In this document: positions 19,521 through 61,237 of the stretch, piece after piece
Position numbering within the stretch: position 1 is the first letter of the stretch
Layout of the letters: the number at the start of each line of letters is the position of its first letter
Assembly: GCA_016794595.1 (NCBI GenBank)
Contig: JAEUJN010000066.1
Coordinates: 1 to 64,000, forward strand
DNA length: 64,000 bases
DNA from: Kineosporiaceae bacterium
Lineage (GTDB): Bacteria; Actinomycetota; Actinomycetes; Actinomycetales; Kineosporiaceae
Reading direction: 5' to 3'
Position numbers and translations under genes: made by a program
The notes under the pieces: model-generated
What the model saw: the letters and a program-made list of their open reading frames with translations, nothing else
What the model was told of the DNA's origin: nothing
Databases searched by the model: none

Positions 19521-19573
19521 CGCCGAGAGTGCTGATCTCCCCCACTTACCGGGGGAGATCAGCACTCTCGGCA
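19521..19573. repeat. 53-bp palindrome, copy 2 of 2
   Basis: Identical to the copy at 18503 at 52 of 53 positions, including the ACTTACC loop in the same orientation; 22-bp arms remain paired. It lies 8 bp past the stop of the next gene leftward-running gene (19581) and 67 bp upstream of the DUF559 start, so together the copies bracket exactly one gene, about 1.02 kb apart. Confidence 0.95.
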
Positions 19574-19580
19574 CGTGGGG

Positions 19581-37707: not shown

Positions 37708-38928
37708 ATGACCGAGCCGACGCCCCTTGCCCCGCCGGCCGCCGAGGCCACGCTCACCCTGACGCCCCCGGCGGCCCCGGCCGCGGTCGCCACCACCCAG
37801 GCGCCCAAGATCGCCCCACAGGTGGACGCCGCGCTGGTGCCGGGCCTGGACGCCAAGGTCGACGGCTACCTCGACGCGCTGCTCAAGGAGTCGCCGAACT
37901 CGCCCAACTTCACGGCCAAGGCCAACGACGTGCGCACCATGGGCGACGTCGACATCCGCCGGGCCGCCGAGACCTCGAACACCCTGCTCAAGTCGCCGGT
38001 CAAAGCCCTGCAGGAGGGCGGCCTGTCCGAGGGGTCCAAGATCGGCAAGACCCTGATCGAGCTCCGCCGCACCGTTGAGGACCTCGACCCGGGGGGCGCC
38101 AAGGGCACCAAGAAGCTGTTCGGCATCCTGCCGTTCGGTGACAAGGTCGAGGACTACTTCCGCAAGTACCAGAGCGCCCAGGGGCACCTCGACGCGATCC
38201 TGAACGCGCTGTACTCCGGCCAGGACGAGCTGCGCAAGGACAACGCCGCGCTCAACGCCGAGAAGAAGAACCTGTGGGACACCATGGGCCGGCTCAACCA
38301 GTACGTCTACATCGCCGAGCGCCTCGATGCCCGCCTCGCAGCGGGCATCGCCGAGCTGCAGCTCAGCGACCCGGAGAAGGCGAAGTCCCTGCAGCAGGAC
38401 GTGCAGTTCTACGTTCGGCAGAAGCACCAGGACCTGCTCACCCAGCTCGCGGTCTCGATCCAGAACTACCTGGCCATCGACGTGGTGATCAAGAACAACC
38501 TGGAACTGATCAAGGGCGTCGACCGGGCCTCGACCACCACCGTCTCGGCCCTGCGCACCGCGGTGATCGTCGCCCAGGCCCTCGGCAACCAGAAGCTGGT
38601 CCTCGACCAGATCACGGCGCTGAACACCACGACGTCCGACATGATCCAGCGCACCAGCGAGATGCTGCGCGACAACTCGGTGCAGATCCAGGAGCAGGCG
38701 GCCTCGGCCACCATCGGGCTGCCCCAGCTGCAGGCGGCGTTCCAGAACATCTACGCGACGATGGACGCCATCGACACGTTCAAGATTCAGGCCCTGGACA
38801 CGATGGCGACCACCATCGGCACGCTCGAGACCGAGGTCTCCAAGTCGCGCGACTACCTGGAGCGGGTGCAGAAACGCGACGAGCGCCTGGCCGCCGGGTC
38901 ACTGGATCTCGGCGACGGACGGCGCTGA
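37708..38928 (+). CDS. TelA-family (toxic anion resistance) protein
   Basis: A 406-aa, mainly helical cytoplasmic protein of the TelA/KlaA (PF05816) family: ELRRTVEDLDPGG, KLFGILPFGDKVEDYFRKYQS, LNAEKKNLWDTMGRLNQYVYIAERLD and VQFYVRQKHQDLLTQLAVSIQNYLAIDVV are the family blocks. A Pro/Ala/Thr-rich tail of about 45 residues precedes them. TelA proteins are linked to tellurite resistance, membrane stress and phage resistance, mechanism unknown. It is the first gene of the 13.8-kb PknG island. ATG at 37708 follows GAGGAG. Confidence 0.88.
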   Translation: MTEPTPLAPPAAEATLTLTPPAAPAAVATTQAPKIAPQVDAALVPGLDAKVDGYLDALLKESPNSPNFTAKANDVRTMGDVDIRRAAETSNTLLKSPVKALQEGGLSEGSKIGKTLIELRRTVEDLDPGGAKGTKKLFGILPFGDKVEDYFRKYQSAQGHLDAILNALYSGQDELRKDNAALNAEKKNLWDTMGRLNQYVYIAERLDARLAAGIAELQLSDPEKAKSLQQDVQFYVRQKHQDLLTQLAVSIQNYLAIDVVIKNNLELIKGVDRASTTTVSALRTAVIVAQALGNQKLVLDQITALNTTTSDMIQRTSEMLRDNSVQIQEQAASATIGLPQLQAAFQNIYATMDAIDTFKIQALDTMATTIGTLETEVSKSRDYLERVQKRDERLAAGSLDLGDGRR

Positions 38929-39049
38929 GCGCCGACCGATCACGAGCCGGCCCGAGACCGACGAGACGAGCCGACGACACATGGGCGACGACTCGGGGAC
39001 GAGCGGCTGACGACCTGACGGGGCAACGAGGAGCGGGAGAGGACGAGCG

Positions 39050-39610
39050 GTGTCGCTGAAGGACTGGTGGGGTGGCCTGTTCGGCCGGTCCCGGGAGCCC
39101 TCGCGCGACGTCCGCGACGCCGAGCCGTTCGACGTGCCCAGGGTGCCGACCGGCCAGGAGCTGCTCACCCAGCTCGACGCGCTCGAGTCCGACATCGACG
39201 AGAAGGCCCGCGCCGATCGGATCTCCCCGGTGGTCGCGGTCCGGGTGCACGACATCAGCGCGACCGCGCGCGACATCATCCCGCGGCTGAACCAGCTCGG
39301 TGGCGGCACCCGGGACGCCCACTCGGTGATGGCGACCGTCACCAGCTATCTGCCCGAGGCGCTCGGCACCTACCTGCGGCTGCCGCGCACCTACGCCGAC
39401 ACCCGCCCTGTGGCCGGCGGCAAGACCTCGTTGATGGTGCTCGTCGACCAGCTCGACCTGCTCTCGGTCACCATGGACAAGATCCTGGACGCCGCGACCC
39501 GCCGCGACGTGCAGGCCCTGGTCGCGCACGGCCAGTTCCTGGCGGACAAGTTCGGCCACTCGGCCGGCGGCGGCGCGCTCGATCTCGGCCTGACCGGGGG
39601 AGAGCAGTGA
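39050..39610 (+). CDS. protein of unknown function in the PknG island
   Basis: A 186-aa soluble helical protein (MSLKDWWGGLFGRSREP...ESDIDEKARADRISPVVAVRVHDIS...VMATVTSYLPEALGTYLRLPRTYAD). The position next to telA is the place held by xpaC in Bacillus, and the helix-turn pattern EALGTYLRLP is reminiscent, but I do not claim homology. GTG at 39050 with GAGAGGACGAG upstream. Its stop lies inside a 17-bp tandem repeat leading to the AAA gene. Confidence 0.6.
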   Translation: MSLKDWWGGLFGRSREPSRDVRDAEPFDVPRVPTGQELLTQLDALESDIDEKARADRISPVVAVRVHDISATARDIIPRLNQLGGGTRDAHSVMATVTSYLPEALGTYLRLPRTYADTRPVAGGKTSLMVLVDQLDLLSVTMDKILDAATRRDVQALVAHGQFLADKFGHSAGGGALDLGLTGGEQ

Positions 39611-39660
39611 GCGGGGAAGTCCAGTGATCGGGGGAGTGCAGTGAGCGGGGGAGTGCGGTG
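39605..39660 (+). repeat. 17-bp tandem repeat between two island genes
   Basis: Three full units and the start of a fourth (beginning 39605, 39622, 39639, 39656), consensus CAGTGAGCGGGGGAGTG. Each carries a GTG followed by an AGCGGGGGAG ribosome-binding-like stretch. The upstream stop (39608-39610) overlaps the GTG of unit 1, and the AAA gene starts at the GTG of unit 4, so the expansion appears to have pushed a former GTGA overlap 51 bp apart. Confidence 0.85.
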
Positions 39661-41337
39661 AGCGCCCGGGGAGCCGACCTCGAACAGGCCCTCGCACGGC
39701 TGGTCGGGGTCGGGGTCGGGGCAGGCCTGCGCGCCGAGGACGTGCACGCCGAGGGCGCCGCGCTCGCAGCCACGCTCGCCGAGTCGGCCCTCGGTGCGCC
39801 GGCGGCGTGGGCCGGGGTGATCGGGGACGGCGCCGACACGGCCGCCTTCTTCGACGCCGCCAGCCGGGCCAGGCGCTGGCGCACCGCGCCGACCGCCGGC
39901 CTGCTGGCGCTGGTGAGCTCGGGCTCGCCGCAGGCGAAGGCCTACGCCGAGGCGCTGGTCGAGCTGACCACCGCGGCCTGCACCCTGGGCGAGGCCAGCA
40001 TCCAGGTCGTGATCAACGCCTCGACCTCCGCCGCGGCCCAGCTGCGGGCGGCCACCCCCGGCGCCTCGGTCCCGGGGCCGCCCCCCTCGCCGGACGCCTC
40101 CCGGTCGGTGAGCCCTGCGCCCTCGGCGCCGGGCGTGCCCCCCGCGGCGGGCGCCCCTCACCCGCCCGGGGTGACGGCGTTGCCGGTCGACCCCCGGCTG
40201 CTCGACCAGTTGCGGATCACCCACGGGATCACGCTGCCCCCCGGCGTCCGGGGCACCCCGCCCCCGGGCGGCTCGCCGGGCGCCGGCCCGGGTGATCCTG
40301 CCGGCACTGGCGACCCGGTGCCCGGCCCGTCCGGCGCGCGTGCCGACCCCGCGGCGGCCCAGGCCGCGCCGTCCGCTGACCCGGCCGCGCCGGCGCAGGA
40401 ACTGCCTCCGGCCCGCTCGCTCGAGGAGCTGCTGGCCGAGCTCGACGAGCTCACCGGCCTGACCACGGTCAAGACCGAGATCCACCGCCAGACCGCGGTG
40501 CTCCGGGTGGAGAAGCTGCGCGCCGAGGCGGGCATGGCCAAGGCGACGATCACCCGGCACCTGGTGTTCGTCGGCAACCCGGGCACCGGCAAGACGACGG
40601 TGGCCCGGCTGGTCTCCGGCATCTACCGGGCCCTCGGGCTGCTGAGCAAGGGACAGCTGGTCGAGGTCGACCGCTCCGAGCTGGTCGCCGGGTACCTGGG
40701 GCAGACCGCGATGAAGACCGCCGAGGTGGTGGCCAAGGCGATCGGCGGGGTGCTGTTCATCGACGAGGCCTACAGCCTGGCCGGGGACGCCTACGGCGAG
40801 GAGGCGATCGACACCCTGGTCAAGGAGATGGAGGACCACCGCGACGACCTGGTCGTGGTGGTGGCCGGGTACCCGGTGCCGATGGCCGAGTTCATCGACA
40901 CCAATCCCGGTCTGGCGAGCCGGTTCCGGACCATCCTGACCTTCGCCGACTACACCGACGACGAGTTGGTCGCGATCTTCGAGAAGATGGCCGACAAGGC
41001 CGACTACACCACCGGGCCCGAGGTGCTGGCCACCTTCCGCGAGCTGTTGGCGGGCGTGGTGCGGGACGAGACCTTCGGCAACGGCCGCTACGCGCGCAAC
41101 GTGCTGGAGGCCGCGATCGGCCGGCACGCCTGGCGGCTGCGGGACGTCGAGTCGCCCACCGTCGAGCAGCTGCGCGAGCTGGCGCCGGAGGATCTGGCCG
41201 ACCCGCCGCCGGAGGTCGCGCCGCCGTCCGCGCTCGATCTCGACCAGCCGGTCCCGAGCACCTCCGATCCCCAATCCGCTGCCGGACCCGAGGGTGGCGA
41301 CCCCGATGACGCCACCCCTGGAGGTGAGCCCTCGTGA
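39658..41337 (+). CDS. CbxX/CfqX-type AAA+ ATPase (EccA-like)
   Basis: A 559-aa protein: N-terminal helical region to about residue 125, a Pro/Gly/Ala linker to about 250, then a CbxX/CfqX AAA+ domain. Walker A is [15 protein letters not shown], the pore-loop region [13 protein letters not shown], Walker [14 protein letters not shown], and the arginine-finger region [28 protein letters not shown] is the sensor-2 segment. Family members remodel Rubisco or, as EccA, serve type VII secretion; no ESX gene is here. The stop overlaps the glnX-like start (GTGA). Confidence 0.85.
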
Positions 41338-42689
41338 GCACCGCCCCACCCGTCCGCAGGCCGTCCCGGGCGCCGGGCCCACCTGCCGGGCTGCCCGCAC
41401 CCGTGCCCGGCACCGCGGTCGACCCCACGGCACCCGCCGTCCCGGTGCGCACCCGGCGCCGCGAGGCACTGGACAAGGCACTGTCCGGCACCCCTGGTCG
41501 CCTGCGGGTCGCGGCCGTCCTGTCCGTGCTCGGGTCGCTGATCTTCGGCCTGCTCGGCGGATCCGCCTTCCAGGCCTGGGGCGGTGCGCTGGACGATGCC
41601 CGGGCCGACGCCGCCCAGCTGGTGCGGGTGCAGGCGGTCCAGAACGATCTGGTCAAGGCGGACGCCGCGGCCGCCGCGATCTACCTGGCCGGAGGGGTGT
41701 CGGCCACCAACGCCGCGATCAACGAGGCCACCGCGGCCAATCGTGCCGCCTACGACGAGGCCATCGCGGACGCCGCCCGCCGGCTGGCCCAGCCCTCGGC
41801 GGCCTCGGACACCGAGGCCATGGAGAAGGCGATCGAGGGGCTCGCCCGGTACACCTCGCTGGTCTCGCAGGCGCAGGCCAACAACCGGTTCGGGCTGCAG
41901 GTGGGCGCGGCCTACCAGCGGCAGGCCGGCGAGGTGTTGCGCAGCCAGATCGTGCCCGCGCTGGAGCAGGTCTCGCACGCCGACCAGCGCCGGGTGGCGG
42001 CGGCCTACGAGGCCGCGAACAACGCCACGATCCGGCTGATCGGTGCGGCCGTGCTGGCCCTGGTGCTGCTCGGCGGCGCCCAGCTCTGGCTCGCCCGGCG
42101 CACCCACCGGGTGATCAACGTGCCGCTGGCCGTCGGCACCCTGGCGGTCGTGCTGGCGACCGGTCTGGGTGTCACCGCGGTGAACTCCTCGGCCGAGCAG
42201 GCCAACCGGGTGGCCACCACCTCCTACGCCCACACGGTGGCCCTGGCCTCCGGCCGTACCGCGGCCTTCGACGCCAAGGCGCAGGAGGCCTTCGGGCTGA
42301 TCGCCCGGGGCAATGCGGCGGCCGCCGAGCGGATCGCCACCGCCCGGATCGCGACCGCGACCGAGCAGCTGGCCTCGGTGCGCGCGGTCGACGTCTCGGA
42401 TCTGTTCGCCGCCTGGGCGGCCGAGCACGCCGCGGTGCGAGCGGCCGACGACGCCGGCTCGTGGGCGGCCGCCCGGGACGCCGCGCTGACCACGTCCTCG
42501 GAGGCGTTCGAGGTCTTCGACGCCCGCTCGGCCGAGGTGCTGACCGCCAAGGCGGCCCAGGTGGACGACGAACTGGGCTCGGCCCGCAACCGGCTGGTGG
42601 CGATCGGCTGGTTCACGCTGGCCTGTGGCCTGATCGCCGCCGGGGCGGCCTACGCCGGCATCGCGCAGCGGATGGGGGAGTACCGATGA
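41334..42689 (+). CDS. glnX: GlnX-like membrane sensor protein
   Basis: A 451-aa protein with four transmembrane helices (about 59-80, 234-254, 263-283 and 420-443) enclosing two Ala-rich helical extracytoplasmic domains, and a Pro-rich cytoplasmic N-terminus. This topology, size, and placement directly upstream of glnH and pknG match mycobacterial GlnX, which relays extracellular aspartate/glutamate binding by GlnH to PknG. Sequence is low-complexity, so the name rests mainly on context. It overlaps both neighbours by 4 nt. Confidence 0.78.
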   Translation: MSTAPPVRRPSRAPGPPAGLPAPVPGTAVDPTAPAVPVRTRRREALDKALSGTPGRLRVAAVLSVLGSLIFGLLGGSAFQAWGGALDDARADAAQLVRVQAVQNDLVKADAAAAAIYLAGGVSATNAAINEATAANRAAYDEAIADAARRLAQPSAASDTEAMEKAIEGLARYTSLVSQAQANNRFGLQVGAAYQRQAGEVLRSQIVPALEQVSHADQRRVAAAYEAANNATIRLIGAAVLALVLLGGAQLWLARRTHRVINVPLAVGTLAVVLATGLGVTAVNSSAEQANRVATTSYAHTVALASGRTAAFDAKAQEAFGLIARGNAAAAERIATARIATATEQLASVRAVDVSDLFAAWAAEHAAVRAADDAGSWAAARDAALTTSSEAFEVFDARSAEVLTAKAAQVDDELGSARNRLVAIGWFTLACGLIAAGAAYAGIAQRMGEYR

Positions 42690-43714
42690 CCCGGCCAGTG
42701 GGCAGGCGCGTGACCAGGCGTGGAGGTGGGCCGGGCCGGCCGGGTCTGCCGGGTCGGCTGCGGGTCGGCACAGTGGCGCTGGTGGCCCTGTCGGCCGTGG
42801 CCACTGCCGTCTCGGGCTGCGTCAGCGCTCCACCCGTGCCGACCACCACGACCACCTCCCCGGCCCCTGCGGGGTCCCCGGCCGCCCCGGTGAGCTGCAC
42901 CAACGCCCGCCAGTCCTACGCTCCCTCGACCTCCAGCGCCCACGCGAAGGCGATCCAGGCGCGCAAGTTCCTGGTGGTGGGGGTCTCGGCGGACACCCGC
43001 CAGCTGGGCGCCGTCGACCCGGCCAACCCCGATGCCTTCCAGGGGTTCGACATCGAGATGGCCAAGCTGGTCGCGGCCGAACTCGGGGTGCCGATCCGGT
43101 TCAAGGTGATCACCACGGCTGACCGGGTCGGCCAGCTCGGCAAGGAGGTCAACGCCCGCAGCATCGCCGACGGCGGCGTCGACCTGGTGGCCCGGGCCTT
43201 CACCATGAACTGCGCGCGCTGGCAGCAGGTCGCCTTCTCGGCGGTCTACTTCGAGGCCAGCCAGGGTCTGATGGTGCCGCGGGCCTCCTCGATCAAGGCC
43301 TTGTCCACCCTGTCCGGCAGGACGGTGTGCGCCCCGGCCGGCTCCACCAGCCTGGACACGATCAAGGCCAAGGTTCCGGGGGTGACCGTCCGCGGGGTGG
43401 CCAACCACACCGACTGCCTGGTGCTGCTCCAGCAAGGGCAGGTCGATGCGATCACCGGTGACGACGCCATCCTGGCCGGGTTCAAGGCTCAGGACCCCAC
43501 CACCGTCGTGCTGCCCGACATCGACCTCAGCGACGAGCCCTACGGCCTGGGCGTGAACCTGAAGCACAAGGACTTCGCCGCCTACGTGAACGCCGTGCTG
43601 GAGAAGGCCCGCGCCAGCGGCGCCTGGCAGAAGGCCTACGACACCCACCTGCGGGGCCCGCTGGGCAAGGCCGGCACCCAGCCGACGCCGATCTACGGCC
43701 GGCCGCTGTCGTGA
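42686..43714 (+). CDS. glnH: GlnH-like amino-acid-binding lipoprotein
   Basis: A 342-aa solute-binding lipoprotein: basic Arg/Gly-rich N-terminus, hydrophobic signal and lipobox AVSGC (Cys45), Thr/Pro linker, then a family 3 periplasmic-binding fold (FLVVGVSADTRQLGAVDP, FQGFDIEMAKLVAAELG, VDLVARAFTMNCARWQQVAFS, ITGDDAILAGF). No ABC permease or ATPase is adjacent, consistent with a sensing rather than transport role, as shown for GlnH-GlnX-PknG in mycobacteria. ATGA overlap with glnX, GTGA with the next gene. Confidence 0.88.
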   Translation: MTRPVGRRVTRRGGGPGRPGLPGRLRVGTVALVALSAVATAVSGCVSAPPVPTTTTTSPAPAGSPAAPVSCTNARQSYAPSTSSAHAKAIQARKFLVVGVSADTRQLGAVDPANPDAFQGFDIEMAKLVAAELGVPIRFKVITTADRVGQLGKEVNARSIADGGVDLVARAFTMNCARWQQVAFSAVYFEASQGLMVPRASSIKALSTLSGRTVCAPAGSTSLDTIKAKVPGVTVRGVANHTDCLVLLQQGQVDAITGDDAILAGFKAQDPTTVVLPDIDLSDEPYGLGVNLKHKDFAAYVNAVLEKARASGAWQKAYDTHLRGPLGKAGTQPTPIYGRPLS

Positions 43715-44979
43715 CCGCCTCCACGCGGTCGGGCTCCTCCGGCGCCTCCCGGGGCCTGGCCATCGCGCCGACCCCTCCGGGACGGCTGGGTGAGGCCGCC
43801 GACCCCGGCGCCCTGCTCGCCTACCTGCGCGAGCTGCGCGACTGGGTGGCCCAGCGCAAGCGTGAACTCGACGGCCTGGACGCCGCGGCCCAGCGCTCGG
43901 CGGACCCGGACGACTACACCGCCGACGTCACGCTGTCGATGGCGCTGTGGCAGTCGGTCAGCGACCGGTGCCTGAGCCTGGACACGCTCTGGGACGCCGG
44001 GCGCGCGGACGCGATCACCCGGGAGAAGATGTCCCAGGTGATCTGGGGCCGCCTGGCCAGTGGCACGGCCACCGGGGGGCTGACCCTGAGCCTGGTCGAG
44101 GCCTGCCGGCTCTCGGACGCCCTGGCCGCCCAGTTGCGGGCCCGGCTGGCCTTCGACCCGCGGGCCAGCGACGCCGCGGTGCGGGTCTCGGCACTGCGGG
44201 CCGCCCTGGAGCGGTTGCGCGAGCTGGTCAAGCAGGAGCCCTCCTGGTCGGCGCAGGTCGACCTGCTGTCCACCCGGGTGGACGACGTCGCCGTCCGCGC
44301 TGCCCGCGGCGGGGATGTGGACGGCGTCCTGCACAACCTCGAGGTGGACGCCGCCCGCGCCGAGCGCGATCTGGTGGTCACCACGGCCACCAAGCTGCGC
44401 CAGGCCCGCTCGGCCGAGGCCGAGGCCGCCGATCTGGCCTCCGATCGCGCCCGGGCCGCCAGCGAGGTGGCCGCCCTGGAGCACCGTCGGCTGCGGCTGC
44501 TCGGGCTGGTCGAGCGCTGCCTGGCCGAGATCGCCTCGGCGCCGCGCTACGCCGTCCCGGACGTCGCGGCGCTGGGCTCGGTGCCCGGAGATCGGGAGGG
44601 CCTCGACGCCTTCACCCGCCGCCTGGACACCGTGGTGCGGGCCATGGACCGGGTCGAGGAGGCCTACGGCCGCCCGCTCGAGGAGCGCGAGGAACTCGTC
44701 GGCCTGCTGACCGGCTACCGCACGATGGCGGCGCGGCAGTCCCGCGGGCACGATGCAGCGGTCGCGGTGGCCCTGGGTCGGGCCGAGCAGGCGCTGGCGG
44801 CCGTGCCGTGCGATGTCGGGGCCGCCCGGCTGGCGGTGACCACCTTCCGCGAGTTGGTGCGCACCCCCGCGCCCTCCTCGGCCGCCGCCGCTCCGTCATC
44901 CTCTGCCTCCTCTGCCTCCTCCGGCGCCGCCTCGCCGGGTGCCGCCCACGATCCAGCCGCGACGGGAGTCAGGCCATGA
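43711..44979 (+). CDS. coiled-coil protein inserted between glnH and pknG
   Basis: A 422-aa cytoplasmic, almost wholly helical protein with Ala/Arg/Glu/Leu-rich heptads (ALLAYLRELRDWVAQRKRELDGLD; LRQARSAEAEAADLASDRARAASEVAALEHRRLRLLG) and a Ser/Ala-rich tail. No known domain recognised. It overlaps glnH by GTGA and pknG by ATGA, so it is translated with them. In Mycobacterium glnH and pknG are adjacent; an extra subunit here suggests a modified signalling complex. CDS length and frame are unambiguous. Confidence 0.7.
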   Translation: MTASTRSGSSGASRGLAIAPTPPGRLGEAADPGALLAYLRELRDWVAQRKRELDGLDAAAQRSADPDDYTADVTLSMALWQSVSDRCLSLDTLWDAGRADAITREKMSQVIWGRLASGTATGGLTLSLVEACRLSDALAAQLRARLAFDPRASDAAVRVSALRAALERLRELVKQEPSWSAQVDLLSTRVDDVAVRAARGGDVDGVLHNLEVDAARAERDLVVTTATKLRQARSAEAEAADLASDRARAASEVAALEHRRLRLLGLVERCLAEIASAPRYAVPDVAALGSVPGDREGLDAFTRRLDTVVRAMDRVEEAYGRPLEEREELVGLLTGYRTMAARQSRGHDAAVAVALGRAEQALAAVPCDVGAARLAVTTFRELVRTPAPSSAAAAPSSSASSASSGAASPGAAHDPAATGVRP

Positions 44980-47246
44980 CACCGCCCACCGCCGTCCCCA
45001 ACGGAACCCGGTGCACCCAGCCCGGGTGCACCGGCACCATCCAGGACGGGTACTGCGACGTCTGTGGCAGCCCGGCCGGCGCCCCGGTCGTGCCGGCCGC
45101 CTCGTCGGCCTCCGCCGCCGGCGGGCCCTCCGACGAGGGCGCGGCGGGCGGGACGCCGTCCACCGCCAGCAAGATCACCTCCTCCAACCGGCTGGAGAGC
45201 ATCCCGATCGGCTCGGCCCGCGCCGGTGGCACCCGGGCGACCCGCAGCGTCGGCACCGGCTCGACCCGGCTGCGCGGGGCGCGGCTCGGGGCCGGGCTGA
45301 CGTTCGTGCCGCCGGTGCCCGCGCTGGACCCCGAGGCCGCGATCATGAAGGACCCGCAGGTCCCGGAGGACCGGCGGTTCTGCCCGAGCTGCGGCACGCC
45401 GGTCGGCCGCTCCCGCGAGGGGCGTCCCGGCCGGTTGGAGGGTTTCTGCCCCCAGTGCCGAAACCCGTTCTCGTTCACCCCGAAACTCAGGCCCGGTGAC
45501 CTGGTCGGCGGCCAGTACGAGGTGGCCGGCTGCCTGGCGCACGGCGGCCTGGGGTGGATCTACCTCGCCCGGGACGTCGTGCTCGGCCGGCGCTGGGTGG
45601 TGCTCAAGGGCCTGCTGAACTCCGGGGACGCCGACGCCTACGCGGCCGCGATCGCCGAGCGGGAGTTCCTGGCCAAGGTCGAGCACCCACTCATCGTGGA
45701 GATCTTCAACTTCGCCCAGCACGAGGGCGCCGGCTACATCGTGATGGAGTACATCGGCGGCACGTCCCTGAAAGACCTTCTCAAGCAACGGATGCAGCGT
45801 GCCGGCCGGTACGACCCGATCCCGGTCGACCAGGCGATCGCCTACCTGCTGGAGATCCTGCCGGCGTTCACCTACCTGCACGACCAGGGCCTGCTCTACT
45901 GCGACTTCAAGCCGGACAACATCATCCAGGTCGGTGACGCGGTCAAGCTGATCGACCTGGGCGGCGTCCGGCGGATCGACGACCTGGACTCCCCGATCTA
46001 CGGCACGGTCGGCTACCAGGCCCCCGAGGTGCCCACCACCGGCCCCTCGATCGCCTCGGACATCTACACCATCGGCCGCACGCTGGCCGTGCTGGTGATG
46101 GAGTTCCGCGGGTACCAGTCCACCTACGCCACCTCGCTGCCCCCCGTGGCCGAGATGCCGCTGTTCCAGCAGTACGACTCGCTGTTCCGCCTGCTGGCCA
46201 AGGCCTGCGCCCTCGATCCGAACGACCGGTTCCAGTCGGCGGACGAGTTGCGGGTGCAGCTGCTCGGCGTCCTGCGCGAGATCGTCGCCCTCGACCGGCC
46301 CGACTCCGGGGTCGCCCAGCACTCGACCGCCTCGGTGCTGTTCGAGGTGCCGGTGGTCTCCGGGGACACCCTGTCCTGGACCGAGTTGCCCGCGCTGCGG
46401 GTGGACGCCTCGGACCCGCAGGCCGCCTGGCTGGCCGGGCTGTCGGTGACCGAACCCGTCGCCCGCTGGACCGAGCTGGCCAAGCAGCCCAGCCCGAGCG
46501 TCGAGGTGCGCCTGGCGATGATCCGGGCCGCGCTCGAGGCGGGCCGGCACGACCTGGCCGACGGCACCGTGCAGGAGATGCTGAAGACCGACCCCTGGGA
46601 GTGGCGCGCGGTCTGGATGAACGGGTTGAGCGCGCTCGACCTGGGCAACGCGGCAGCCGCCCGGGCGGCGTTCAACGCCGTCTACGGCCAGGTACCGGGG
46701 GAGCTGGCCCCCAAGCTGGCTCTCGCGCTGGCCTGCGAGCTGAGCGGGGAGGGCGAGGTCGCCGAGTCGCTCTACCTGACCTGTGCCCGCACGGACGCCA
46801 ACTACACCGCCCCGGCGGCCTTCGGGATGGCCCGGATCCGGCTGAACCGCGGCGAGGTCGACGGTGCCGTGGCCGCCCTGGATCTGGTGCCCTCGACCAG
46901 CCGGGCCTTCGTCGAGGCGCGGCGGCAACGGGCCGGGCTGCTCGCCGGTTCGGGGCGGGGGCTGGCCGGGCTGGCCGAGGCGCTGGACAGCGTCTCCTCG
47001 GTCACCATCGAACCGCTGGACCGGGCCCGGCTGGAGGTCAACGTGCTGGGTGCCGCACTGCGGCACGTGCTGGACAAGGGACCCCAGGAGTCGATCATGA
47101 TCGGTGGCCACCCCGCGCGGGAGACCTCGTTGCGCGACGCCGTCGAGGGCGCCTATCGGCGGCTGGCGACGATGGAACCCGACACCGACGAGCGGGTTCG
47201 GCTGGTGGACGCGGCCAACGAGGTACGGCGGTGGACCCTGCGATGA
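44976..47246 (+). CDS. pknG: serine/threonine protein kinase PknG
   Basis: A 756-aa soluble kinase (M. tuberculosis 750 aa). Order: an N-terminal zinc ribbon (Cys13, 18, 27, 30) absent from mycobacterial PknG; Thr/Arg-rich tail; rubredoxin-like domain (Cys136, 139, 158, 161, in FCPSCGTPVGRS and FCPQCRNPFSF); kinase domain with GCLAHGGLGWIYLA, Lys211 in VVLKGL, non-RD catalytic loop YCDFKPDN and DLGGV for DFG; then TPRs ending with EVRRWTLR. GELAPKLALALACEL is near-identical to the mycobacterial repeat. In actinobacteria PknG phosphorylates GarA/OdhI to control 2-oxoglutarate flux. Overlaps neighbours by 4 nt. Confidence 0.95.
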   Translation: MTPPTAVPNGTRCTQPGCTGTIQDGYCDVCGSPAGAPVVPAASSASAAGGPSDEGAAGGTPSTASKITSSNRLESIPIGSARAGGTRATRSVGTGSTRLRGARLGAGLTFVPPVPALDPEAAIMKDPQVPEDRRFCPSCGTPVGRSREGRPGRLEGFCPQCRNPFSFTPKLRPGDLVGGQYEVAGCLAHGGLGWIYLARDVVLGRRWVVLKGLLNSGDADAYAAAIAEREFLAKVEHPLIVEIFNFAQHEGAGYIVMEYIGGTSLKDLLKQRMQRAGRYDPIPVDQAIAYLLEILPAFTYLHDQGLLYCDFKPDNIIQVGDAVKLIDLGGVRRIDDLDSPIYGTVGYQAPEVPTTGPSIASDIYTIGRTLAVLVMEFRGYQSTYATSLPPVAEMPLFQQYDSLFRLLAKACALDPNDRFQSADELRVQLLGVLREIVALDRPDSGVAQHSTASVLFEVPVVSGDTLSWTELPALRVDASDPQAAWLAGLSVTEPVARWTELAKQPSPSVEVRLAMIRAALEAGRHDLADGTVQEMLKTDPWEWRAVWMNGLSALDLGNAAAARAAFNAVYGQVPGELAPKLALALACELSGEGEVAESLYLTCARTDANYTAPAAFGMARIRLNRGEVDGAVAALDLVPSTSRAFVEARRQRAGLLAGSGRGLAGLAEALDSVSSVTIEPLDRARLEVNVLGAALRHVLDKGPQESIMIGGHPARETSLRDAVEGAYRRLATMEPDTDERVRLVDAANEVRRWTLR

Positions 47247-49051
47247 GCACCGATCCGACCATGACGGCGGACGGCGCGCCGGTGGCGTCCTGCCCCGTGT
47301 GCGGTGGTGAGGTCACCCCGCAGGAGAGGTTCTGCGAGAACTGCGGAGCCGAGATCGCCTCCGGAACCGCTTCTGCCGCAACGGCCCCCGGGGAGCCGGC
47401 AGGGGGTGCCGGGCCGGTTCCCGGGGCCGCTCCCGGTGCGGCCCACCCTCCCACGGCGGTGCCCACCCCAGGGGGCACCGTGCACGACGGCACGCTGCTG
47501 GACGACCTGACCGCCGCCGCCACCGATCGAGCCCGTCACCCGGGATCGCGCCCGGACGTGCTGCAGGTCAGTGACGCCGATCTGAGCCTGGTCCCGGCCA
47601 CCTGCGCGCAGTGTCAGGGAACGGTGGCCCCGGACGGCTACTGCGAGCAGTGTGGCCAGGCAGCGCCCCGGCTGCGCGATCACTGGCGTGACCAGCCGGC
47701 GTCCTGGTTGGCGGCCGTGTGTGATCGCGGCATCCGGCACACCCGCAACGAGGACGCCATGGCCGTCGCGGCGGCGCTGGTGCCGGGCAGCCTGGGGGCG
47801 ATCGTGGTCTGCGACGGGGTCTCGATGGCGATCGACTCCGACCGGGCCAGCCTGGCCGCCGCCCGGGCGGGCCGGGACGCGCTGATCGAGGGGCTCAGCG
47901 CCCGCTCGTTCGCGACGCCCGCGACGTCGGCGACGCCCGTTGGTGGCGTATCCGGACCGGCCGGCCAGGCCGGACCGGCCGGATCGGCTGCGACCCCGGG
48001 CGCGGCGTCGGGCCCGCTGGACGACGACGCGATGCCGGGCGGGCGCAGCGCGCAGCAGGTGGCCCGGGCCGGGGAGTTCACCGCGCGGATCCTGGCCGCC
48101 GGGGCCGCCGCCCAGGCGCGGGCGGCCGAGGCCGGGGCCGGCGTCCCCGAGGGCAAGAGCCCGCCGTCCTGCACCTTCGTGGCCGCCCTGGTCGAGCGAG
48201 CCGTCCACGCCGGCCCGGGACTGCTGGTGGCCGGCTGGGTCGGGGACAGCCGGGCCTACTGGATCCCGGACGAGGGCGTCGCCGGTCAGGTCAGCGTCGA
48301 TGACTCCTGGGCCGCCGAGGCGATCGCGCAGGGCGTGCCCCGGGCCGAGGCGGAGCACATGCCGCAGTCCCACGCGATCACCCGCTGGCTGGGGGCCGAC
48401 GCCCACGACCCCGTGCCGCGGACCGCCGTCCGGGCCCTCGACCGCCCGGGCTGGGTGCTGCTCTGCTCGGACGGGTTGTGGAACTACGCCTCCGAGGCCG
48501 CGGAACTGGCCGAGCTGGTGCACGCGGCGAGCGCCCCGCCGGGGGATCCCGCGGCCCTGGCCGAGGAGCTGGTCGCCTGGGCGATCGCCCAGGGCGGTCA
48601 GGACAACATCACGGTGGCCCTGGCCCGGTTCGACCCGGAGGCGACCACGGACGTCGTCCCGGCGCCGCCCCCGGTGCACCCGGTGGTGGTCGCCTCGCCC
48701 GGTGCGGCCTCCGGCGGGCCGGACGGCACGGCCGGGGACGGCGCGGGGCACGGCGCGGGGGACGGCGCCGTCCCGGACCCGAGCACGACCCTGGAGGAGC
48801 CCCCGAGCGCGCCCCTCTGGGGGACGCCCCCACCGGCGCCGATCCAGCCGCCCGCTGTTCAACCACCTCCGGCGCCCGCCGTGCATCCTCCCCCCGTGCA
48901 GCCGCCTGCGGTGCCCCCGGTGGAGCCGCCCCCGGTTCAACCCGCAGTGCAGCCGGTGCAGCCACCGACCGTCCCCAGCCAGGGCGGCTCGCCGGAGAGC
49001 GACCCACCACCCGGCGCGGCCGGTACGCCACCGGCAGCCGGTCCGTCGTGA
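47243..49051 (+). CDS. PP2C-type protein phosphatase with N-terminal zinc ribbons
   Basis: A 602-aa protein. Two zinc ribbons (CPVCGG...FCENCG near 17-35 and CAQCQG...YCEQCG near 117-135) precede a PP2C domain (about 155-460) with the metal/phosphate motifs CDRGIRHTRNEDAMAV, VVCDGVSMA, GWVGDSRAYW, LLCSDGLWNY and GGQDNITVAL. A Pro/Gln/Val-rich tail of about 140 residues follows. It is translated from the ATGA at the pknG stop and is the natural antagonist of PknG, probably dephosphorylating PknG or the FHA protein. Confidence 0.9.
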   Translation: MSTDPTMTADGAPVASCPVCGGEVTPQERFCENCGAEIASGTASAATAPGEPAGGAGPVPGAAPGAAHPPTAVPTPGGTVHDGTLLDDLTAAATDRARHPGSRPDVLQVSDADLSLVPATCAQCQGTVAPDGYCEQCGQAAPRLRDHWRDQPASWLAAVCDRGIRHTRNEDAMAVAAALVPGSLGAIVVCDGVSMAIDSDRASLAAARAGRDALIEGLSARSFATPATSATPVGGVSGPAGQAGPAGSAATPGAASGPLDDDAMPGGRSAQQVARAGEFTARILAAGAAAQARAAEAGAGVPEGKSPPSCTFVAALVERAVHAGPGLLVAGWVGDSRAYWIPDEGVAGQVSVDDSWAAEAIAQGVPRAEAEHMPQSHAITRWLGADAHDPVPRTAVRALDRPGWVLLCSDGLWNYASEAAELAELVHAASAPPGDPAALAEELVAWAIAQGGQDNITVALARFDPEATTDVVPAPPPVHPVVVASPGAASGGPDGTAGDGAGHGAGDGAVPDPSTTLEEPPSAPLWGTPPPAPIQPPAVQPPPAPAVHPPPVQPPAVPPVEPPPVQPAVQPVQPPTVPSQGGSPESDPPPGAAGTPPAAGPS

Positions 49052-49137
49052 TCGGATGAGCGGTGACATCGTCGGCGTGGTCGGATGAGGCGGAAGCGGC
49101 GGTCGGATGACCCCGGATCGATTGTGAGGTGATCGGC

Positions 49138-50418
49138 GTGGCCCAGTTCACCGCCGAGGTGTTCCAGAACGAGTTCCTGCCCGACGGCGGCACCGACGTG
49201 CACGCCGTGGTGACCATCACCTGCGCCGGTGCCGGTGAGGCCGGCCGGGGCGAGGGCGGCGAGGCCGCCGAGCTGATCATCGTCGACACCTCGGGGTCGA
49301 TGCAGGGCGACAAGATCTACGCCGCCCAGACCGCGGCCGCCGCGGCGATCGACCAGATCCTGGACGGCACCTGGTTCGGCATCGTCGCCGGCACCGACGG
49401 CGCCACCCGGGTGTTTCCCTACCCGAACGCCGAGACCGCGCTGGTGCGGATGGAGCCCGGTGCCCGGGCCGAGGCCAAGCGGGCGATCGGCCGGCTGGTC
49501 GCCGGAGGCGGCACGGCGATGGGTTCCTGGCTCCGGCTGGCCAAGCGGATCTTCGAGAGCGTCCCCCGGGCCACCCAGCGGCACGCGATCCTGCTCACCG
49601 ACGGCCGCAACCAGAGCGAGCCGCCCGAGGTGCTGGCCTCCTCGGTGCGCGATGCGCAGGGGGTGTTCCAGTGCGACTGCCGCGGGGCGGGCGTGGACTG
49701 GGACGTCGCCGAGCTGCGGGGGGTCTCGACCGCGCTGCTGGGCACCGTCGACATCATCCCGGACGCGGCCTCGATGCCCCGGGTGTTCGCCGAGCTGATG
49801 CAGCAGGCGATGAGCCGAGGGGTGGCCGACGCCCAGCTGCGGGTGTGGGCACCCCAGGGGGCTCAGGTGCTGTTCGTGCGCCAGGTCAGTCCGCAGGTCG
49901 AGGACCTCACCGGACGCCGGGTGGACGTCAACCCGCTGACCGCCGCCTTCCCGACGGGGGCCTGGGGGGATGAGTCCCGCGACTATCACGTCGCGGTCAG
50001 GTTGCCGGCCAAGCCGGTGGGCTCCGAACAGCTCGCCGCCCGGGTACAGCTCGTGGTGCGTGACCAGGTGGTCGCCGGGGGCCTGGTGAAGGCGCTCTGG
50101 TCGGACAACGACGTGCTGACGACCCGGATCAATCCCGAGGTCGCGCACTACACCGGCCAGGTCGAGCTGGCCGAGGTCATCCAGGCCGGGCTGGCCGCCC
50201 GGTCGGCGGGGGACGAGGCGACCGCGCGGATCAAGCTGGGCCGCGCCGTCCAGCTGGCCGAGGCCACCGGCAACGCCGAGGCCACCACCCGGCTGAAGAA
50301 GGTGGTCGACGTCGAGGACGCCGCGACCGGCAAGGTGACGCTCAAGCGTGACGTCGACCGGGTGGACGAGATGGCCCTGGACACCAGCTCCACCAAGACC
50401 ACCCGGGTGAAGAAGTAG
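49138..50418 (+). CDS. VWA-domain protein
   Basis: A 426-aa cytoplasmic protein with a von Willebrand A domain. The MIDAS motif is VDTSGSMQG, the Thr is in GGGTAMGSW and the Asp in LLTDGRNQS, all intact. The C-terminal half (from about VWAPQGAQVLFV) is a beta-rich region then a helical segment with charged end (TTRVKK). Similar VWA proteins accompany PP2C, FHA and TelA/TerD genes in stress-response islands. GTG at 49138 follows GAGGTGATC; GTG at 49129 would add three residues. Confidence 0.85.
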   Translation: MAQFTAEVFQNEFLPDGGTDVHAVVTITCAGAGEAGRGEGGEAAELIIVDTSGSMQGDKIYAAQTAAAAAIDQILDGTWFGIVAGTDGATRVFPYPNAETALVRMEPGARAEAKRAIGRLVAGGGTAMGSWLRLAKRIFESVPRATQRHAILLTDGRNQSEPPEVLASSVRDAQGVFQCDCRGAGVDWDVAELRGVSTALLGTVDIIPDAASMPRVFAELMQQAMSRGVADAQLRVWAPQGAQVLFVRQVSPQVEDLTGRRVDVNPLTAAFPTGAWGDESRDYHVAVRLPAKPVGSEQLAARVQLVVRDQVVAGGLVKALWSDNDVLTTRINPEVAHYTGQVELAEVIQAGLAARSAGDEATARIKLGRAVQLAEATGNAEATTRLKKVVDVEDAATGKVTLKRDVDRVDEMALDTSSTKTTRVKK

Positions 50419-50445
50419 CCCGGTGCCCGACGGAGGGGAACCTCA

Positions 50446-51507
50446 GTGACGACCTATACCTGCCCGGACGGGCACACCTCGTCCTCGGACGACTACTGCG
50501 ACGTCTGCGGCAGCCCCATGGCCGCCGGCGGGGCAGCTGCTCCGGCCGCGCCGGGCACCCCTGTGGCGCCGGCAGCGCCGGCGGCGGGTGGTCCGCCGGC
50601 GCCACCGCCCGTCCCCGGCGGCGCGGGCACGCCGTCCGGGTCGAGCCTGGACCTGGACGCCCCCGTCCCCGCCGCCTCGGCCGGCGCGGCGCCGTCCGAC
50701 CAGCTCTGCCCCAACTGCGGGTCGCTGGAACTGCCCGACGCCTTGTTCTGCGAGCACTGCGGTTATGACTTCGTGACCGGGCAGCTGCCTCGCCCGCTCG
50801 ACCCGCCGGCCGGGATGCCGGTACCCGCCCCGCCGACGTCGCCCGCCGTCCCGCCGGTCTCGCCGCCCGCCGACCCTCCCGTCGTGCCCGCGCCCGATGA
50901 CGCGGGCCAGGACGACCCGGGCGACCCGGCAGCTGCCCCCGCTCCTGCGCTGTCCCCGCCGGAGCCCGCGCCGCTGCCCGCCCCGCAGCCTGACCCGCAG
51001 CCCCTGCCGGACCCGGTCGGCGACCCGGTCGCGGTGCTCCAGCCCCCGCCGTCCGCCCCGGGGCCGGTCGTCCTGCCGCCGGCAGCCCGCACGCCGGACG
51101 GCGTGGAGTGGGTGGTCGAGGTCTGGGTCGACCCGGACTGGCACGCGGCCCAGGACGTCAACGATCCCTGCCCGTCGGCCGGCATGCCGGCCGTGGTGCC
51201 GCTGCGCCAGCGCAGCGTCCTGGTCGGTCGGACCTCGACCAGCCGGAACATCCACCCGGACGTCGACATCACCGGTGACACCGGGGTCTCGCGTCGGCAC
51301 GCCCAGCTGACCAGCGACGGAATGCGATGGTGGATCGAGGATCTGGGTTCGGCCAACGGCACCTACGTCGGGGGAGCGGGTCAGCCACTGCCCGCGGATC
51401 CGATCGTCAACCGGGTGGAACTGCTGGACGACGGCCGGGTCTACCTCGGGGCCTGGACCCGGCTGGTGGTCCGCAAGGCCTCCGCCTCCGAGCGCGCCGC
51501 CGGCTGA
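50446..51507 (+). CDS. zinc-ribbon and FHA-domain protein
   Basis: A 353-aa protein. Two N-terminal zinc ribbons (CPDGH...YCDVCG; CPNCG...FCEHCG), a very Pro-rich linker (about 115-210) and a C-terminal FHA domain with LVGRTSTSRNIHPDVDI, VSRRHAQL and LGSANGTYVG, the phosphothreonine-binding residues. It ends the PknG island and could be the phosphopeptide-binding output like GarA/OdhI, but it lacks an evident GarA-type phosphorylation motif at its N-terminus. GTG with GGAGGGGAA upstream. Confidence 0.88.
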   Translation: MTTYTCPDGHTSSSDDYCDVCGSPMAAGGAAAPAAPGTPVAPAAPAAGGPPAPPPVPGGAGTPSGSSLDLDAPVPAASAGAAPSDQLCPNCGSLELPDALFCEHCGYDFVTGQLPRPLDPPAGMPVPAPPTSPAVPPVSPPADPPVVPAPDDAGQDDPGDPAAAPAPALSPPEPAPLPAPQPDPQPLPDPVGDPVAVLQPPPSAPGPVVLPPAARTPDGVEWVVEVWVDPDWHAAQDVNDPCPSAGMPAVVPLRQRSVLVGRTSTSRNIHPDVDITGDTGVSRRHAQLTSDGMRWWIEDLGSANGTYVGGAGQPLPADPIVNRVELLDDGRVYLGAWTRLVVRKASASERAAG

Positions 51508-51519
51508 GGTCCGCAGCCA

Positions 51520-51594
51520 CTGCTCGTCCAACCGCTCGTCCAACCGCTCGTCCGACTGCTCGTCCGACCGAACAGCAGGCCGAACAGCAGGCCG
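51520..51594 (+). repeat. 12-bp tandem repeats between the FHA gene and the two-component genes
   Basis: Four 12-bp units of consensus CCGCTCGTCCRA (51520-51567) are followed by two exact copies of AACAGCAGGCCG (51571-51594) and then two GCTGCTTACG elements near 51602-51620. The 165-bp gap holds no other feature. The repeats may be simple expansions or a regulator site ahead of the response regulator. Confidence 0.8.
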
Positions 51595-51673
51595 ATGGCG
51601 AGCTGCTTACGGGCTGCTTACGAGGGGCGTGGCCGGGCCCGGACCGCGCCCGGGTGACCTACGCTCAGCGCTG

Positions 51674-52381
51674 GTGGTGAGCATCCTGCTGGTGGAGGAC
51701 GACGCGACGGTGCGCGAGGCCGTCGGCGGCTACCTGCGCCGGTCCGGTCACGCGGTGACCTGTGTCGGCGATGGGGTACGCGCGCTCGAGGAGTTCGCGG
51801 CGTCCGTCCCTGACCTGGTCCTGCTGGACCTGATGCTGCCCGGGATGAGCGGGTTCGACGTGCTGCGCCGCCTCCGGGCGCTCCGGCGGGAGACTCCGGT
51901 GATCATGCTGACCGCCAGGGGGCAGGAACACGAGCGGGTGGCAGGGCTGCAGGCCGGGGCCGACGACTACGTCACCAAACCCTTCAGCCTGCGCGAACTC
52001 GAGCTGCGCGTGCGCTCGGTGGTGCGCCGCAGCGCGCGTCCCGACCAGCCGGTCGAGCCGGTGGAGCCGGTGCTGACCAGCGGCGACCTCACGGTCGACC
52101 GGATGGCCCGGCGGGTGCTGCGGGGCGGGCGAGAACTGATGCTCACCGCCCGCGAGTTCGACCTGCTCGCCTGGTTGGTGGCCCACCCGGGGGTGGTCGC
52201 CGGACGCGATCAGCTGATCCGTGAGGTGTGGGGCTGGGAGGTCGGGGATGAGTCGACGGTGACCGTCCACGTCCGGCGCCTGCGCGAGAAGGTCGAGCCG
52301 GATCCGTCCCGGCCCACCCGGCTGGTCACCGTGTTCGGTCGCGGCTACCGCTGGGACGTCCCCGCCGGGGAGAGCGGGTGA
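51674..52381 (+). CDS. OmpR-family response regulator
   Basis: A 235-aa regulator: receiver domain (SILLVEDDATVREAV, phosphoacceptor Asp in LVLLDLMLPGMSG, switch Thr in VIMLTARG, Lys in DDYVTKPFS) and a winged-helix domain ending STVTVHVRRLREKVEPDPSRP...TVFGRGYRWDVP. GTG at 51674 or the adjacent GTG at 51677 is the start. It overlaps the histidine kinase by GTGA. Confidence 0.93.
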   Translation: MVSILLVEDDATVREAVGGYLRRSGHAVTCVGDGVRALEEFAASVPDLVLLDLMLPGMSGFDVLRRLRALRRETPVIMLTARGQEHERVAGLQAGADDYVTKPFSLRELELRVRSVVRRSARPDQPVEPVEPVLTSGDLTVDRMARRVLRGGRELMLTAREFDLLAWLVAHPGVVAGRDQLIREVWGWEVGDESTVTVHVRRLREKVEPDPSRPTRLVTVFGRGYRWDVPAGESG

Positions 52382-53430
52382 GACCCGAACTCAGCGCCGT
52401 CCTGGTCTCGGCCGCGACCACGGCAGCCGTTGCCTCGGCCGGGGCGTTCGGGGTGTGGCGGATGGCGGCCGAGAGGCCGGCCGCTGCCGCGCGGGCGGCT
52501 CCCGCGGTGGTGGTCGCGGCCCTGGCCGCCGGGGTGGCCGTGGCCACCCGGGCCATGGTGGTCGCCGAGGACGACTACCGCACCGTGCTGTTCGTGCTCG
52601 CGGCCGGCGCGCCGATGGCGGCCCTGATCGGGGTGCTGCTCGCCCGACGGGTCTCGGCGATGCAGACCCTGGCGGCTCGGGAGCGGGCCGACCGCCTGCG
52701 GGCCGAACAGGTCGAGGCCTCACGCCGCGAGACCATCGGGTGGCTCTCGCACGACCTGCGCACGCCCCTGGCCGGCGTCCGGGCGCTGGCAGAGTCGGTG
52801 CAGGAGGACATGGTCGACGATCCCCGGGCCGCGGCCGAGCGGATCGTGCGCGAGGTGGACCGGCTCGGCGCCATGGTCGATGACCTCGCCGAACTCTCCC
52901 GGGTCCACGCCCTGCCGGACGATGCCGTCCGGGACGCCGTCCGCGCCCGCGAGCGGGTGTGCGTGGACGACGTGGTCTCGGACGCCGTCGAGTCGGTGTC
53001 GCCGGTGGCCGACCTCGCCGGGGTGAGCATCCGGGCGGGTGCCCTCTGCGGTGCGAGCGCCCATCTCGACCCGACCTCGGTGGGCCGTGCGGTGACGAAC
53101 CTGGTGCGCAACGCCGTCCAGCACAGCCCCGCAGGCACGGTGACCATCGGCACGCGCCGCGACGGGGACTGGGTCGACATCGTCGTCGACGACGCCTGTG
53201 GCGGGATTCCCGAGGCGGAGCTGGACCGGGTGTTCGAGGCGGGGTGGCGCGGTGACCCCGCCCGCCGCTCGTCCGCCGGGGTGCTGCCGGCCGGCTCCGG
53301 CGGGGGCGGCATGGGGCTGGGCCTGGCGATCGTGGCCGAGGTCGCCCGCGCCCACGCGGGCTCGGTGAGCGCGCGCAACCGGGAGGACGGCACCGGCTGC
53401 ACCTTCGTGCTCCGCCTGCGTGCCGACTGA
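52378..53430 (+). CDS. sensor histidine kinase
   Basis: A 350-aa membrane kinase with two N-terminal transmembrane helices and almost no extracytoplasmic loop, so it likely senses membrane state or a partner. H-box IGWLSHDLRTPLAGV (His about 124), N-box TNLVRNAVQHSP, G1 VDDACGGIPEAE and G2 GGMGLGLAIVAEV are intact. It pairs with the upstream OmpR-type regulator; the thioredoxin-lipoprotein gene begins 103 bp later and may be its target. Confidence 0.9.
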   Translation: MRPELSAVLVSAATTAAVASAGAFGVWRMAAERPAAAARAAPAVVVAALAAGVAVATRAMVVAEDDYRTVLFVLAAGAPMAALIGVLLARRVSAMQTLAARERADRLRAEQVEASRRETIGWLSHDLRTPLAGVRALAESVQEDMVDDPRAAAERIVREVDRLGAMVDDLAELSRVHALPDDAVRDAVRARERVCVDDVVSDAVESVSPVADLAGVSIRAGALCGASAHLDPTSVGRAVTNLVRNAVQHSPAGTVTIGTRRDGDWVDIVVDDACGGIPEAELDRVFEAGWRGDPARRSSAGVLPAGSGGGGMGLGLAIVAEVARAHAGSVSARNREDGTGCTFVLRLRAD

Positions 53431-61097: not shown

Positions 61098-61190
61098 CCC
61101 GGGTAGACTCCGGATGCCGCGACTGGCGTAGGTGGGACACCACCGGGGAGCGGCTGTTGTCGTGTCCGAGAGGTCGTCCGCCTGGGCCCG
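61098..61190 (+). ncRNA. ZTP (pfl) riboswitch
   Basis: The leader of glyA contains the conserved ZTP aptamer blocks in order: CGCGACTGGCG, GGTGGGACACCACCGGGGAGCG (a stem closed on itself), a variable linker, and CCGCCTGGGC at 61178-61187. This RNA senses ZTP/ZMP, the signal of 10-formyl-THF shortage, and controls one-carbon genes; glyA-folD downstream is its classic target. The GC-rich stretch after the aptamer may form the expression platform. End points are approximate. Confidence 0.9.
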
Positions 61191-61237
61191 GGGCCGTGAT
61201 CGAATCGCTGCCGACCCGTGTGTCACGAGGAGCCTTG

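Follow-up and report, generated by a model that had tools for sequence, protein, structure and literature searches.

In mycobacteria and corynebacteria, the amino-acid-binding protein GlnH and the membrane protein GlnX tune the activity of the Ser/Thr kinase PknG. This kinase has drawn attention for its parts in the virulence of mycobacteria and the industrial production of amino acids, and GarA/OdhI is the only downstream component that is firmly established. The published operon consists of three genes, glnX-glnH-pknG (PMC8546545, PMC6069109), and PknG acts on an FHA protein that is recruited via the N-terminal segment of the kinase (PMC8546545). Here, we describe a ten-gene locus (hereafter, the island) that contains these three genes in a 64,000-nucleotide stretch of DNA from a Kineosporiaceae bacterium (assembly GCA_016794595.1, contig JAEUJN010000066.1, positions 1 to 64,000; hereafter, the window). 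Our favored explanation, which we hold with slightly better than even confidence, is that the island is a conserved PknG-centered signaling operon, in which sensing by GlnH-GlnX-PknG, opposed by a PP2C phosphatase, controls a switch formed by an FHA protein and a VWA protein that resemble archaeal ArnA and ArnB.

Two other described systems bear on this locus. In Sulfolobus, the zinc finger of ArnA binds unphosphorylated ArnB and the FHA domain binds the phosphorylated C terminus of ArnB, while the kinase ArnC and a PP2A phosphatase shift the pair between these states with nutrient supply (PMC12852372; PMC7472852). TelA homologues affect sensitivity to nisin and tellurite by an unknown mechanism (Collins 2010, as cited in PMC12791056); one homologue, YaaN (PMC12791056), is encoded in the xpaC-yaaN pair of Bacillus subtilis, which belongs to the sigma-W regulon (PMC3498285).

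Conservation and forms of the operon

The island comprises ten genes on the plus strand at positions 37708-51507 of the window, in the order telA, g2, AAA, glnX, glnH, g6, pknG, PP2C, VWA, and zinc-ribbon FHA (families assigned by Pfam and NCBIfam). The ten co-directional genes proposed by an earlier sequence-only reading of the window were thus confirmed; features beyond that reading are the lack of a Pfam family for g2 and g6 and the position of g6 between glnH and pknG. A scan of a genome collection with the window's own PknG as the query yielded 80 named loci, which are hence the nearest relatives of this PknG. All ten genes were present in the same order in 55 of the 56 named loci with enough flanking sequence, the sole exception being Tetrasphaera australiensis, where PknG occurs by itself. 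The ten-gene loci cover Kineosporia, Kribbella, Nocardioides, Microlunatus, Cellulomonas, Promicromonospora, Serinibacter, Humibacillus, and one Microbacteriaceae strain. This conservation excludes a chance arrangement, and the neighborhood is not restricted to one strain; such a restriction was what the sequence-only reading had named as fatal to its proposal.

Wider forms were read from further loci across the phylum (families f21, f22, f107, and f108 were identified by inference). Family f22, consistent with Mycobacteriaceae and kin, has the three-gene form glnX-glnH-pknG. Families f21 and f108 have a seven-gene form, glnX-glnH-g6-pknG-PP2C-VWA-FHA, which is devoid of telA-g2-AAA. Family f107 and Nonomuraea gerenzanensis show the rearranged order g6-pknG-PP2C-VWA-FHA-glnX-glnH, so that the operon linkage outlasts rearrangement. 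One f22 genome (G713) has two copies, one with three genes and the other with seven.

In a PknG tree (quick method, midpoint root), every ten-gene row fell into one clade with a Shimodaira-Hasegawa-like approximate likelihood ratio test (SH-aLRT) value of 100, a clade that also includes two reduced rows (L157 and L158). The seven-gene rows were scattered among several lineages, and the sister of the f22 three-gene clade was the f22 seven-gene copy. The simplest reading of these sequences takes the seven-gene form to be old and the three-gene form to be reduced, with a single gain of telA-g2-AAA; transfer events or a different root may alter this picture. On this reading, PP2C, VWA, FHA, and g6 are old and widespread partners of PknG, and TelA and AAA are a later addition in one clade. 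The presence of pknG in a conserved operon of seven to ten genes in many soil actinobacteria thus points to the textbook operon with three genes as a cut-down form.

Co-occurrence was also analyzed across the class, in a set of 395 genomes, with island-type VWA called at E <= 1e-100. PknG was present in 148 genomes and island-type VWA in 97, and all of these 97 also had PknG (97/97). Among the PknG genomes, VWA was detected in 95 of 110 outside f22 and in 2 of 38 within it. The VWA matches lay <=6 kb from a listed PknG in 79 of 111 cases, and many of the others were second copies, lay at contig edges, or had a PknG row that was not listed. Separately, at two loci (L112 in G425 and L160 in G675), a second, distant PknG-like kinase gene adjoins a VWA gene and a GlnX-like gene, which constitutes another kinase-VWA-receptor module.

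The operon linkage and its evolutionary pattern are strong, and they are new as far as the open literature shows: no description of an extended PknG operon was found in open-licence publications (subscription papers were outside the search), in agreement with the earlier remark that no account of the combination as one system was known.

Gene junctions

Five of the nine junctions in the window are 4-nucleotide (nt) overlaps (AAA/glnX, glnX/glnH, glnH/g6, g6/pknG, and pknG/PP2C), and the remaining genes are separated by gaps of 121 nt (telA/g2), 47 nt (g2/AAA), about 86 nt (PP2C/VWA), and 27 nt (VWA/FHA). The description of the genes as mostly overlapping by 4 nt, given by the sequence-only reading, therefore holds for these five junctions but not for the gapped ones. 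Across loci, the 4-nt overlap is strongly conserved at AAA/glnX (67/68), glnX/glnH (67/69), g6/pknG (69/76), pknG/PP2C (69/80), and VWA/FHA (56/71), and elsewhere the g2/AAA junction is usually a 4-nt overlap as well (54/66 loci). In the window, a short tandem repeat (about GTGAGCGGGGGAGTGCA) with several possible GTG starts occurs at this last junction (39600-39665). Three loci (L060, L062, and L075) carry several extra kilobases between PP2C and VWA, the sole uncoupled inner junction. A scan for sigma-70 promoters and terminators, which is uninformative at this G+C content, gave one promoter-like site within pknG and one terminator-like site on the minus strand.

A zinc ribbon shared by PknG, PP2C, and FHA

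The pknG gene (44976..47246; 756 amino acids [aa]) encodes a zinc ribbon, a rubredoxin domain, a Ser/Thr kinase domain, and PknG_TPR; its scores for PF16919 (93.7 bits), PF00069 (95.4), and PF16918 (191.3) each exceed the cut-off, and it is the only PknG in the genome. Its extra N-terminal zinc ribbon (CTQPGCTGTIQDGYCDVCG, 45012..45068) is kept in ten- and seven-gene PknGs. The PP2C phosphatase (47243..49051; 602 aa; Pfam PP2C; Stp1-like, 78 bits) has two N-terminal zinc ribbons, of which the second (CAQCQGTVAPDGYCEQCG, 47603..47656) is of the PknG-ribbon type, as is the first ribbon (CPDGHTSSSDDYCDVCG, 50461..50511) of the FHA protein (50446..51507; 353 aa; Pfam FHA). One short ribbon with the core DGYCDVCG is thus common to three products of the operon, and a profile built from the PknG ribbon matched PknG, PP2C, and FHA only and none of the other seven island families.

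This ribbon was present in nearly all of the ten- and seven-gene PknGs read and absent from the three-gene PknGs read in families f22 and f25. Variants have Trp in place of Tyr or other spacings, and some N termini were cut too short. In genome G001, from the same family as the window and 95% complete, VWA is missing at the locus and was not found genome-wide; this locus is also devoid of g6 and telA-g2-AAA, and its PknG has no ribbon. The PknG ribbon thus tracks the presence of the extra partners. The catalytic motifs of PknG, PP2C, AAA, and VWA are conserved, including NEDA, GDSR, SDGLW, and GGxDNIT in PP2C.

The VWA-FHA pair

The VWA protein (about 49138-50418; 426 aa; Pfam VWA and VWA_3_C) matched PDB entry 4fx5 end to end, tail included, at 378.9 bits. 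The fold of 4FX5 (i.e., vWA, beta-sandwich, and four-helix bundle) is the same as that of the ArnB paralogue vWA2 (Hoffmann et al. 2019, PMC6509490), and by this indirect route, via 4FX5, the island VWA is predicted to have the tripartite ArnB-type fold with a C-terminal four-helix region. Its C-terminal tail (DEMALDTSSTKTTRVKK, 50365..50415) is nearly invariant across both island forms, and E411, M412, L414, S418, and T421 are invariant in 23 sequences. This residue conservation makes the STKT(T)R segment of the tail a candidate phosphosite and a candidate site for FHA docking. Among PDB entries, the FHA protein matched those of ArnA best, 8s05_C with 41.0 bits and 5a8i with 38.7 bits, followed by GarA (32.8 bits).

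We propose the following mechanism for the operon. GlnH would bind an extracellular amino acid and tune PknG via GlnX, and PknG and the PP2C of the operon would set the phosphorylation state of the two-protein VWA/FHA switch. Phosphorylation would likely fall on the conserved Thr/Ser-rich C terminus of VWA and be read by the zinc-ribbon FHA protein. Through the ribbon that they share, PknG, PP2C, and FHA probably dock on the same partner, for which VWA is the most likely candidate. The 422-aa product of g6 (43711..44979), present in ten- and seven-gene forms and seen only beside PknG in the loci examined, is probably a scaffold. It had no Pfam family, either as a single sequence or as an alignment; its AlphaFold2 (AF2) model was all-helical with long helices (predicted local distance difference test [pLDDT], 89) and gave no PDB match at E<=0.001.

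Sensor proteins and the relation to GarA/OdhI

GlnX (41334..42689; 451 aa), a membrane sensor/transducer, matched NF058618 with 227 bits over positions 2-413 of 413, slightly below the cut-off of 250, and its position and its 4-nt coupling to glnH are conserved. GlnH (42686..43714; 342 aa; Pfam SBP_bac_3) is a lipoprotein-like amino-acid-binding protein whose best PDB match is the Mycobacterium tuberculosis GlnH (6h2t, 152 bits). In the latter, Arg147, Trp232, and Thr162 contact the ligand side chain and Ser164, Arg169, and Asp250 contact its backbone (PMC6069109). The island GlnH retains Arg147, Arg169, and Asp250, and Ser164 is mostly Thr; its ligand is likely an amino acid. In some metagenome-assembled genomes from fen and groundwater (L057, L062, and L064), GlnX is diverged (128-154 bits) and no glnH lies between glnX and g6, a possible sensor replacement.

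The genome also encodes a GarA/OdhI orthologue (173 bits over positions 2-127 of 130; cut-off, 200) with the N-terminal motif DTTISF, whose gene neighbors gcvH and a MerR-like gene on a different contig. This orthologue of the known PknG substrate is a protein distinct from the island FHA, and the sequence-only reading, which took the island FHA as the FHA protein through which PknG acts, does not stand on this point. PknG probably acts on both the island switch and GarA/OdhI, the latter being a second, parallel target encoded elsewhere.

These observations bear on an alternative in which the island FHA is a second GarA-like PknG substrate or metabolic inhibitor, recruited by the phosphorylated N terminus of PknG, with VWA and PP2C as accessories and a metabolic output. 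The recruitment known for PknG (PMC8546545) fits it, the island PknG retains a Thr/Ser-rich motif before RLGAGL, and the island FHA also matches GarA (33 bits). However, the true GarA/OdhI orthologue has its own context elsewhere, and the island FHA, which carries two zinc ribbons, scores below the OdhI (35.4 of 200 bits) and FhaB (43.2 of 125 bits) cut-offs. As this alternative also leaves the obligate VWA unexplained, we regard it as unlikely, while giving it appreciable weight.

The TelA-g2-AAA module

The first gene of the ten-gene form is conserved as telA (37708..38928; 406 aa; PF05816, Pfam TelA 311 bits). It is followed by g2 (39050..39610; 186 aa), which encodes a helical companion of TelA, and by the gene for an AAA ATPase of the SpoVK/CbbX/EccA type with AAA_lid_6 (39658..41337; 559 aa; Pfam AAA and AAA_lid_6). 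The g2 product had no Pfam family, either singly or as an alignment, and its helical AF2 model (pLDDT, 87) gave no PDB match at E<=0.001. A link with XpaC was suspected and not shown, with no detectable match to the XpaC Pfam family. The ATPase scored 268.8 bits against TIGR02881, below the 423-bit cut-off, and its Walker A (GNPGTGKT) and Walker B (LFIDEA) motifs are conserved. A type VII secretion role was rejected, as the match to EccA reached 247 bits against a cut-off of 467.

Homologues of g2 occur with telA away from PknG in other actinobacteria (L166, L176, and similar loci). At L166, telA and g2 are separated by a gene for a lipoprotein in which a binding domain is joined with a VWA domain. 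In the one large clade in which TelA, g2, and the AAA ATPase were added upstream, they would probably serve as an output at the membrane envelope, assembled or dismantled by the ATPase. Because TelA is tied to envelope-active peptides and tellurite and xpaC-yaaN belongs to the sigma-W regulon, an envelope output is our best guess, held with low confidence.

The same evidence raises the question of an envelope or toxic-compound stress system, with TelA-g2-AAA-VWA as the working machine and the PknG part adjusting it to the nutrient state. The link of TelA homologues to nisin and tellurite sensitivity (PMC12791056) and of xpaC-yaaN to the sigma-W regulon (PMC3498285) agrees with this proposal, as do the intact ATPase and the constant place of TelA at the head of the operon in the ten-gene clade. 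However, the widespread seven-gene form has no TelA-g2-AAA, and a TelA stress island was therefore not the original function; in addition, telA is not translationally coupled to g2, and Pfam detected no TerD-family or TerC gene among the ten island genes. We consider this proposal improbable. The view of a single linked system, put forward by the sequence-only reading, is supported: the linkage is conserved, but the TelA/AAA part is an addition of one clade and also exists separately elsewhere.

Evidence for and against the proposed switch

Several observations weigh against the ArnA/ArnB-like switch. The 4-nt overlaps are rare at telA/g2 (6/64 loci) and PP2C/VWA (5/72 loci), and since these junctions are uncoupled, sub-operons are possible. 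PP2C and FHA of G001 retain their ribbons despite the loss of VWA, so that VWA is not the sole ribbon partner. Fifteen of the 110 PknG genomes outside f22 (Mycobacteriaceae) have no strong VWA match, although some are fragmented. In the island GlnH, Thr162 is replaced by Asn or Ala and Trp232 by His or Asp, unlike the Asp/Glu type. Because two of the three side-chain contacts are altered, Asp/Glu specificity is doubtful, and the sensing of extracellular Asp/Glu, which the sequence-only reading cited for mycobacteria, is uncertain for the island despite the retained Arg147, Arg169, and Asp250. The similarity of VWA to ArnB is weak (31 bits, confined to the VWA core, not above that to unrelated VWA proteins, and below some eukaryotic ones), and the score of FHA for ArnA only slightly exceeds that for GarA (41 versus 33 bits). 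We infer every binding, phosphorylation, and output step from homology and anatomy. Given the weak VWA-ArnB similarity and a phosphatase of another family, we suggest by analogy that the pair works like ArnA-ArnB, not that it is a member of that system.

The uncoupled telA/g2 and PP2C/VWA junctions could also reflect a mere conserved gene string, i.e., adjacent operons kept together without a shared function. The one-way co-occurrence of VWA with PknG (97/97), the linkage kept after rearrangement, and the loss of the shared ribbon together with the partners make this quite implausible. Also rejected, as barely credible, was an anti-phage or conflict role of the kind described for AAA/VWA/kinase islands in multicellular bacteria: combinations of AAA, VWA, kinase, and FHA recur in such systems (PMC7159879) and PADLOC kinase models match PknG, but these matches are to the generic kinase domain only, the other island genes have none, and the locus is vertically stable across many families in one order and without an effector domain, unlike mobile defence islands.

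The ArnA/ArnB-like switch therefore remains our preferred explanation. The sequence-only reading had placed a kinase/phosphatase switch on the AAA/TelA/VWA set as a whole, which is partly supported, but an FHA-VWA mechanism is the sharper proposal. If true, PknG has a dedicated phosphatase, a reader, and a second target in most of the other actinobacteria that carry it; the ArnA-ArnB nutrient switch of archaea has an equivalent in bacteria whose extracellular sensor is known; and TelA proteins gain a physiological setting. A wider proposal, to which we give somewhat less than even credence, is that mycobacteria and corynebacteria retain, in their three-gene PknG operon, the reduced remnant of an older actinobacterial system. 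The main output of that system would be the ArnA/ArnB-like FHA-VWA phospho-switch, with a PP2C of its own and the shared zinc ribbon for docking; PknG would have two outputs, GarA control being one of them, and in one clade the switch would also drive an envelope TelA-AAA machine.

Other features of the window

A tandem repeat of CTCGTCCAACCG-like units (51507-51629) lies between the FHA gene and a response regulator gene. The latter and a histidine kinase gene (51674-53430, plus strand) are followed by thioredoxin-like and DsbD-like genes, all downstream of the island and outside its gene count. A ZTP riboswitch (RF01750, 53 bits; 61109-61194, plus strand) is located just 5' of a serine hydroxymethyltransferase gene, which is followed by a folD-type gene, a textbook context. 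On the minus strand at 18317-19574, the repeated peptide VLISPGKWGRSALSA starts two overlapping frames, one of which has a DUF559 match.

Comparison with known systems

The island shares with the GlnH-GlnX-PknG(-GarA/OdhI) system of mycobacteria and Corynebacterium an orthologous PknG with rubredoxin and TPR domains encoded in one operon with GlnX and GlnH, and its genome contains a GarA/OdhI orthologue. It differs in seven extra operon genes, including g6 between glnH and pknG and a PP2C of its own, in the extra zinc ribbon of PknG, and in a GlnH without two of the three Asp/Glu side-chain contacts.

With the TelA (YaaN)-XpaC pair of Firmicutes, the island has in common a TelA family protein beside a small partner, and elsewhere, too, TelA occurs with g2-type proteins, some of which begin with a hydrophobic stretch near the N terminus. 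In the island, however, g2 has no XpaC Pfam match and the pair is fused to a PknG operon.

Caci_2163 of Catenulispora acidiphila, the VWA protein of 4FX5, is homologous to the island VWA along its whole length, tail included, and its structure is solved; the cited paper describes neither its function nor an association with PknG. The ArnA-ArnB system, with its ArnC/ArnD kinases and PP2A, likewise combines a zinc-ribbon FHA protein with a VWA protein that has a C-terminal helical region (in the island, by homology to 4FX5), alongside a kinase, an opposing phosphatase, and nutrient control, the last of which would apply to the island by inference. The island, in contrast, is bacterial, uses PP2C instead of PP2A and a PknG-type kinase with an extracellular sensor, bears weak similarity to ArnB, and in one clade is joined to TelA-g2-AAA.

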